The translations under genes were made by a program, and so were the position numbers. 33,699 nucleotides of DNA, taken from the NCBI RefSeq assembly GCF_900167955.1, contig NZ_FUYK01000001.1:130782-164480 (forward strand). The letters run 5' to 3'. This DNA is from Candidatus Nitrosotalea bavarica. GTDB lineage: Archaea > Thermoproteota > Nitrososphaeria > Nitrososphaerales > Nitrosopumilaceae. This document shows, piece after piece, positions 24,005-27,389 of this stretch. Within the stretch, counting starts at the first letter, position 1; every line of letters starts with the position of its first letter. The notes beneath the pieces were generated by a model. It ran no database searches, was not told the origin of the DNA, and saw only the letters and a program-made list of their open reading frames with translations.

Positions 24005-24171
24005 TATTATGATAATTGGACGGACTAAATTTTTCCACTCCTTAATTTGGTGTAGTTCAACGCTTAAAGTATCATTATACCATCAATAAATCTTCAGAAA
24101 CTTGAGTAAATTAAAATTCAAGTGCATTTATGTTCATTACGTGGGGTCGTAGCCTAGCCTGGTATGGCGAC

Positions 24172-24198
24172 AGTTTAGATCACATTGATCACCGCTAA
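24172..24198 (+). other. tRNA-Trp intron 1 (27 bases, between positions 28 and 29)
   Basis: GGCG (24166-24169) pairs with CGCT (24193-24196) as the 4-bp central helix. The 3-base bulges are ACA (24170-24172, cut after C) and AAG (24197-24199, cut after the second A). An inner hairpin GATCA-CAT-TGATC (24178-24190) caps it. This is a complete bulge-helix-bulge at a non-canonical position in the anticodon stem. Confidence 0.75.
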
Positions 24199-24207
24199 GG
24201 GCTCCAG

Positions 24208-24261
24208 TGGTTTCACAAGCTTCACTGACGTTAGGATGATGTACAGTTTGGAGCTGTAGTG
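24208..24261 (+). other. tRNA-Trp intron 2 (54 bases, position 37/38)
   Basis: Outer helix is the anticodon stem ACGGG/CCCGT. Central pairing is CTCC (24202-24205) with GTAG (24256-24259), with one mismatch. The inner helix is GGTTTCA (24209-24215) with TGGAGCT (24249-24255), including G-U pairs. Bulges are AGT and TGA. The central helix is weaker than in intron 1, so the cut could shift by one base (G at both borders). Confidence 0.65.
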
Positions 24262-24407
24262 ACCCGTGTGTCGCCGGTTCAATTCCGGTCGGCCCCACCA
24301 TCCGATCTCTCCTTTGACCTAACAGTTATAAGGAAAAAGGCTCCTAGTATTGTCGCTAGGGAATTGGGAATGAATTTTAAAATATTAAACGTTGGAGGTA
24401 AACTGAT

Positions 24408-26425: not shown

Positions 26426-26567
26426 AATAATTATTTTCAAGTCAGTAATTTATTGTGATTGATTAGAATTTTGTCAATTTAGGCACAGGGATTGAAGGAA
26501 TTATAATAGAACAAGAAACTTACTCTACATCATATGTATCATAATGCGTATTTGGCTTCATGTATGT

Positions 26568-26603
26568 GTAATTAGTTTTGTTTACAAAAAACAAACTAAT
26601 TAC
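26568..26603. repeat. 15-bp inverted repeat upstream of the receiver gene
   Basis: GTAATTAGTTT(T)GTTT (26568-26583) and AAACAAACTAATTAC (26589-26603) pair along 15 positions with one bulged T and a 5-base loop. It ends 31 bases before the receiver start codon, so it could be an operator, an attenuator hairpin, or the end of the upstream transcript. Confidence 0.45.
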
Positions 26604-26633
26604 TAATAGAAGGCAAATAATCCCCATAAAAGG

Positions 26634-26991
26634 ATGGGAATTAATGCCATAGTTATTGATGATAACAAGGAACTGCTTGCGTGTTTTGTTGAATTACTCC
26701 AGTTTAGCAACATAAATGTCATAGACACAGGAAGAAATGGCAAAGAAGCTGTAGAGTTGTATCAAAAACACAGACCGGATATTCTTTTCATGGATATTGA
26801 AATGCCCCAATATGACGGATTCTATGGATTAAAAAAAATTAAAGAATGATCCAAATGCAACAGTAGTTCTAGTTACAGGCTCAGTCAATATTGAAGAAAA
26901 ATTAGAAGGGTATGGTGCTACTGCAATTCTTCCCAAGCCCTTTGATACGAATAAAATCAAGGACCTAGTAAACAAGATCTGCGTCCATTAA
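26634..26991 (+). pseudogene. CheY-like response-regulator receiver, frame broken at an A8 run
   Basis: The first frame (26634-26849) encodes 71 residues with the acidic pair IDDN, phospho-acceptor LFMDIEMP (Asp near 53) and DGFYGLKKI, then stops. The rest of a receiver domain continues without a gap in the next frame to 26991: NDPNATVVLVTGS (conserved Thr/Ser), ILPKPFD (conserved Lys), KIKDLVNKICVH. Dropping one A from the eight A at 26831-26838 restores one 118-residue receiver with all catalytic residues and no output domain. It may be a recent pseudogene, a homopolymer sequencing error, or a gene that relies on slippage. It lies behind a 15-bp inverted repeat. Confidence 0.8.
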
Positions 26992-27089: not shown

Positions 27090-27389
27090 ATGACAGAATA
27101 TTTTGATGAAGAAGGTCTACTTAAGGTAATTAAAATTTTCGAGTTATCTGGAGAGATTTCAAAACTTAACTGGGGTTGGAACAACCACCCTGAGCCCATC
27201 AGAAGAGCACATGAGCTTATGAACAAGGGACAAAAACTCTATGTAGAAATTTCTGAATATGAGCAAAGAATTGGTTCCAAGCTTGGCATGCAACAGAAGA
27301 AAAATATCGAAGATGCCATGGAAGAGATGGGAAAATTAATCCCTTATATGAAAAATAAGATCAAGCCTACTGAATTAACAACTAGTTAG
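27090..27389 (+). CDS. small helical hypothetical protein
   Basis: 99 residues, charged and mostly helical: EYFDEEGLLKVIKIFELSGE, a Trp-rich turn LNWGWNNHPEPIRRAHELMN, then QQKKNIEDAMEEMGKLIPYM and a Lys-rich end. No membrane segment or metal site. CTTTAAAAAC (27060-27069) is a TATA box about 25 bases before the ATG, so it is expressed on its own message. I recognise no family. Confidence 0.6.
   Translation: MTEYFDEEGLLKVIKIFELSGEISKLNWGWNNHPEPIRRAHELMNKGQKLYVEISEYEQRIGSKLGMQQKKNIEDAMEEMGKLIPYMKNKIKPTELTTS

Follow-up and report, generated by a model that had tools for sequence, protein, structure and literature searches.

A split stand-alone receiver gene in Candidatus Nitrosotalea bavarica, probably a recent frameshift pseudogene

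The window, i.e. the whole stretch of 33,699 nucleotides that was analysed, belongs to the draft genome (1.55 Mb, 19 contigs) of an acid-soil ammonia-oxidising archaeon of the genus Candidatus Nitrosotalea. At positions 26634-26991 of the forward strand it encodes a stand-alone (CheY-like) receiver domain that is distributed over two reading frames. The features of the locus are as follows.

26634..26849, + strand: N-terminal part of the receiver, 71 aa and TGA (Pfam, 53 bits; tblastn), with the start, DD (9-10) and phospho-Asp 54, up to helix alpha3
26831..26838, + strand: run of eight A (A8), codons K-K-I, in register with the intact orthologues (DNA alignment)
26845..26846, + strand: frameshift site, 2 nt missing with respect to all aligned close orthologues (MAFFT, tblastn)
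26848..26991, + strand: C-terminal part of the receiver in frame +1, with Thr82 and Lys102-Pro (tblastn)
26989-26991, + strand: stop codon TAA of the C-terminal part

The first frame (26634-26849 with the TGA included) yields the 71 amino acids of the N-terminal half, MGINAIVIDDNKELL...ILFMDIEMPQYDGFYGLKKIKE before the stop; its match to Pfam Response_reg scored 53 bits compared to 76 bits for an intact orthologue. The second frame, open from 26833, reads KKLKNDPNATVVLVTGSVNIEEKLEGYGATAILPKPFDTNKIKDLVNKICVH up to its stop, with the tail ...NDPNATVVLVTGSVNIEEKLEGYGATAILPKPFDTNKIKDLVNKICVH, and the peptide LEGYGATAILPK is a part of its stretch 26848-26988. The two frames overlap by 14 nt (26833-26846). 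All residues expected of a stand-alone REC (PF00072), the acidic pair DD, the phospho-Asp, the Thr and the Lys, were present, spread over the two frames; Lys102, as well as Thr or Ser at position 82, is found in 52 of 52 relatives. A single continuous frame was not found, as the TGA at 26847-26849 and a 2-nt gap with respect to the orthologues interrupt it. The genome has 18 receiver matches, 17 of them besides this one, and this gene was the only one flagged as interrupted. A search of the source genome for a close intact duplicate returned none; the top paralogue was 49% identical.

In a tblastn search, residues 1-71 of the orthologue from MAG BO56 matched positions 26634-26846 with 90% identity, and its residues 73-119 matched positions 26848-26988 with 79% identity. 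Since both halves matched one and the same orthologue with an E-value of 9e-53, a chance match was excluded. An earlier note, made from the sequence alone, had described a receiver with DD, phospho-Asp, Thr and Lys running across two frames, and these matches bear the description out. The A8 run that it reported at 26831-26838 is real as well, but the note had joined the frames at this run, and the alignments led to another place. We observed that frame 1 keeps the register of the orthologue through A8 and past it (...GLKKIKE, up to 26846), while frame 2 is in register from 26848 on. A DNA alignment with 16 relatives, made with MAFFT, placed a 2-nt gap at GA^ATGAT, at about 26845/26846 and 7 bases downstream of A8; the window sequence at 26844-26852 is GAATGATCC. 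Among the aligned relatives the gap was found solely in this gene, and in the protein it is located at the end of alpha3 or in the alpha3-beta4 loop.

Across A8 itself the alignment ran without a gap (AAAAAATATC in the sisters, AAAAAAAATT in the window). Codon 69, the next one after A8 in frame 1, codes for Ile in all 52 distinct relatives, and the spacing of 28 between phospho-Asp 54 and Thr/Ser 82 was the same in each of them (52/52). Therefore, the A-run has the length that homology predicts and the missing bases lie 3' of it. Judging from these comparisons, the lesion is a loss of 2 nt 3' of A8 rather than a change in the length of A8. A check of the reads for seven versus eight A, as proposed in the earlier note, is thus directed at the wrong place.

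The two nearest species, which also supplied the nearest named matches, both have an intact gene: Candidatus Nitrosotalea MAG_BO56 (G002), with 119 aa and 88% DNA identity, and Nitrosopumilales MAG GL140_3 (G009), with 85% DNA identity. Intact orthologues were also present in about 10 more distant members of the genus. The disabling change is species-specific and accompanied by intact orthologues, the combination that marks a pseudogene. The dN/dS values (Nei-Gojobori) between the window and BO56 were 0.14 for the N-terminal half and 0.30 for the C-terminal half. The corresponding values for BO56 against GL140, the two intact sisters, were 0.10 and 0.32; all of these were derived from small counts, with some 10 changes of each kind in either half. 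We found no measurable relaxation of selection on the second half; counts this small permit a break that spans a minor part of the branch. Derived amino-acid changes in the split gene were few (E59Q, N68K and M106T). Because purifying selection acted on both halves at the level seen in the intact sisters, the break is either young or not real, and the conclusion of the earlier note that a gene free of decay means a recent break or an error is upheld.

We estimate with a probability of roughly 60% that the gene is a recent frameshift pseudogene, limited to this one locus. A 2-nt deletion at about 26845/26846 would have recently destroyed the reading frame in this lineage, and the split gene would now give only the 71-aa fragment, which would end before beta4. 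The C-terminal half would stay untranslated: a search of the second frame for ATG, GTG, TTG and CTG found none in frame, so separate translation by usual initiation is not expected, and independent translation of the second half was rejected on this ground. As the fragment has neither the active-site Thr nor the active-site Lys, it is not expected to fold or to signal as a receiver, and we infer that it is inactive. Redundancy is plausible in view of the 17 further receiver matches of this genome.

It is highly improbable that the 71-aa fragment is instead selected for a new role, for example as a decoy of a histidine kinase. Such a role would agree with the DD and phospho-Asp kept in the N-terminal half and with the selection visible on it. 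The C-terminal half, however, is constrained as strongly as in the intact sisters, and a receiver deprived of beta4-alpha5 is unlikely to fold.

The near-absence of decay, on the other hand, fits an assembly error just as well as a young pseudogene, the species being represented by one assembly. The gap could be an assembly or consensus error in the draft and the organism could have an intact 119-aa receiver; we regard this as possible, although as the less probable of the two. The unrelaxed selection on the C-terminal half and the intact genes of the two nearest species speak for such an artefact. Against it, we detected no frameshift in 145 conserved genes (about 390 kb of the source genome) compared with G035, a member of the same genus, in a screen that required matches by both pieces and would miss short terminal shifts; the reciprocal test also gave 0. 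A search of the same type did find the split receiver when an orthologue served as the query. A generally error-prone assembly was rejected on the basis of 0 frameshifts in these 145 genes. Moreover, errors of this type usually arise inside homopolymers, and the gap lies outside one. Given an assembly that is not indel-prone and a gap that would be an unusual error, a real deletion is favoured, and we infer that it lies in the organism and not in the assembly.

A close homologue of the split receiver (L020, in G005:C211, at about 1627-1634) is interrupted by a 2-nt loss too. The loss is at another place, slightly further 3' than that of the window, and G018, a near relative of L020, is intact. 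Being independent, it makes the loss in the receiver family not unique; an error is equally possible in the G005 draft, which adds to the case for an artefact. Independent losses within the gene family could explain the two cases, and so could an error in each of the two drafts.

Recoding would allow both halves to be used. If one A were lost by transcriptional slippage at A8, or if the ribosome made a +1 shift within 26833-26846, a 118-aa receiver would be produced along with the 71-aa fragment. We consider this unlikely, and still more doubtful the particular outcome in which +1-type recoding (one A of A8 dropped by RNA polymerase, or the ribosomal shift in 26833-26846) restores a receiver one residue shorter. 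The position of A8 inside or beside the overlap, the uninterrupted 118-aa protein read with A7, the conservation of both halves and the use of A-rich slippery sites in the archaeal gene fucA1 (PMC8037382) are compatible with it. The reading frame is opened only by A7 or A10 (one A lost or two gained) or by a +1 shift; a -1 slip or one gained A leads to an immediate stop. However, the -1 programmed type is the only one that we found documented in archaea, and the -1 frame does not continue the protein here but reads KN and stops. The A7 product would have a spacing of 27 instead of 28 between D54 and T82, with Leu at the position where each of the 52 relatives has Ile.

The split arrangement is not conserved either: the intact relatives, which have no A8, need no shift, and neither a conserved slippery site nor split frames were found at this place among the aligned relatives. 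For a stimulatory RNA structure downstream, the MFE was -13.3 compared to -14.7 for shuffled sequences (z = 0.52, a test whose scope was structure other than pseudoknots), so that both hallmarks of frameshifting or slippage, the conserved slippery site and, for the ribosomal type, the structure, were missing. As A8 is frequent in intact, full-length conserved genes of the source genome, it is no mark of recoding here. We rejected A8 length as the cause, based on the orthologue alignment and the intact genes carrying A8; a fucA1-like -1 frameshift, which ends at a stop; and a stimulatory hairpin, as none was found. Slippage at A8, put forward in the earlier note, is thus not supported in view of the ungapped run, the commonness of A8, the broken invariants of the A7 product and the missing structure, and the comparison with sister genomes that it suggested goes the same way, with the closest orthologues uninterrupted and A8 not conserved. 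That two frames border on a homopolymer is no evidence of slippage, since orthologues place the lesion elsewhere. If +1-type recoding were true, it would be of a type that we did not find documented in archaea, and, if shown, would give the very short archaeal list a second mechanism.

A frameshift pseudogene remains more likely than an assembly error, and recoding is unlikely. Of the response regulators in Thaumarchaeota, about 75% are REC-only, and the majority of these occur without a conserved neighbourhood (PMC5847659); the loss of one such regulator is unremarkable. Like the stand-alone REC proteins of Thaumarchaeota (PMC5847659), the gene encodes a single receiver with DD, phospho-Asp, Thr/Ser and Lys, has intact orthologues of about 119 aa and belongs to a type with many copies per genome; unlike them, it has a 2-nt loss that interrupts the frame in this genome only. 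For fucA1 of Saccharolobus solfataricus, -1 programmed frameshifting has been shown (PMC8037382; review PMC8211752). In both cases one protein is divided over two ORFs that overlap close to an A-rich stretch, but the split receiver needs +1 (or -2) instead of -1, its site is not conserved, no structure was found, and the break is downstream of the A-run. With ordinary frameshift pseudogenes, as they occur in prokaryotic draft genomes, the split receiver shares a species-specific indel, intact sister orthologues and the presence of paralogues; it differs from them in being barely decayed, and it is therefore recent or an artefact. The event is an ordinary one; it means that Nitrosotalea can lose a receiver gene of a multi-copy kind, or that such a gene can be misassembled.

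Upstream of the gene we observed an inverted repeat, TTTTGTTTACAAAAAACAAACT, with its core at 26576-26597 (+) within 26563-26608 and with longer arms in the window. It sits 37 bases 5' of the receiver start codon, occurs once in the whole genome and is kept in the sister orthologues of BO56, GL140 and G007; it may be a site for a regulator, immediately 5' of the promoter.

Further upstream, a 155-nt Rfam tRNA match at 24143-24297 (+), missed by ARAGORN, probably represents a tRNA gene that contains a long intron. On the downstream side, positions 27090-27389 (+) hold a 99-aa ORF with no Pfam match. This ORF adjoins the receiver in BO56 and GL140 too, and it has DNA matches in G022 and G001.
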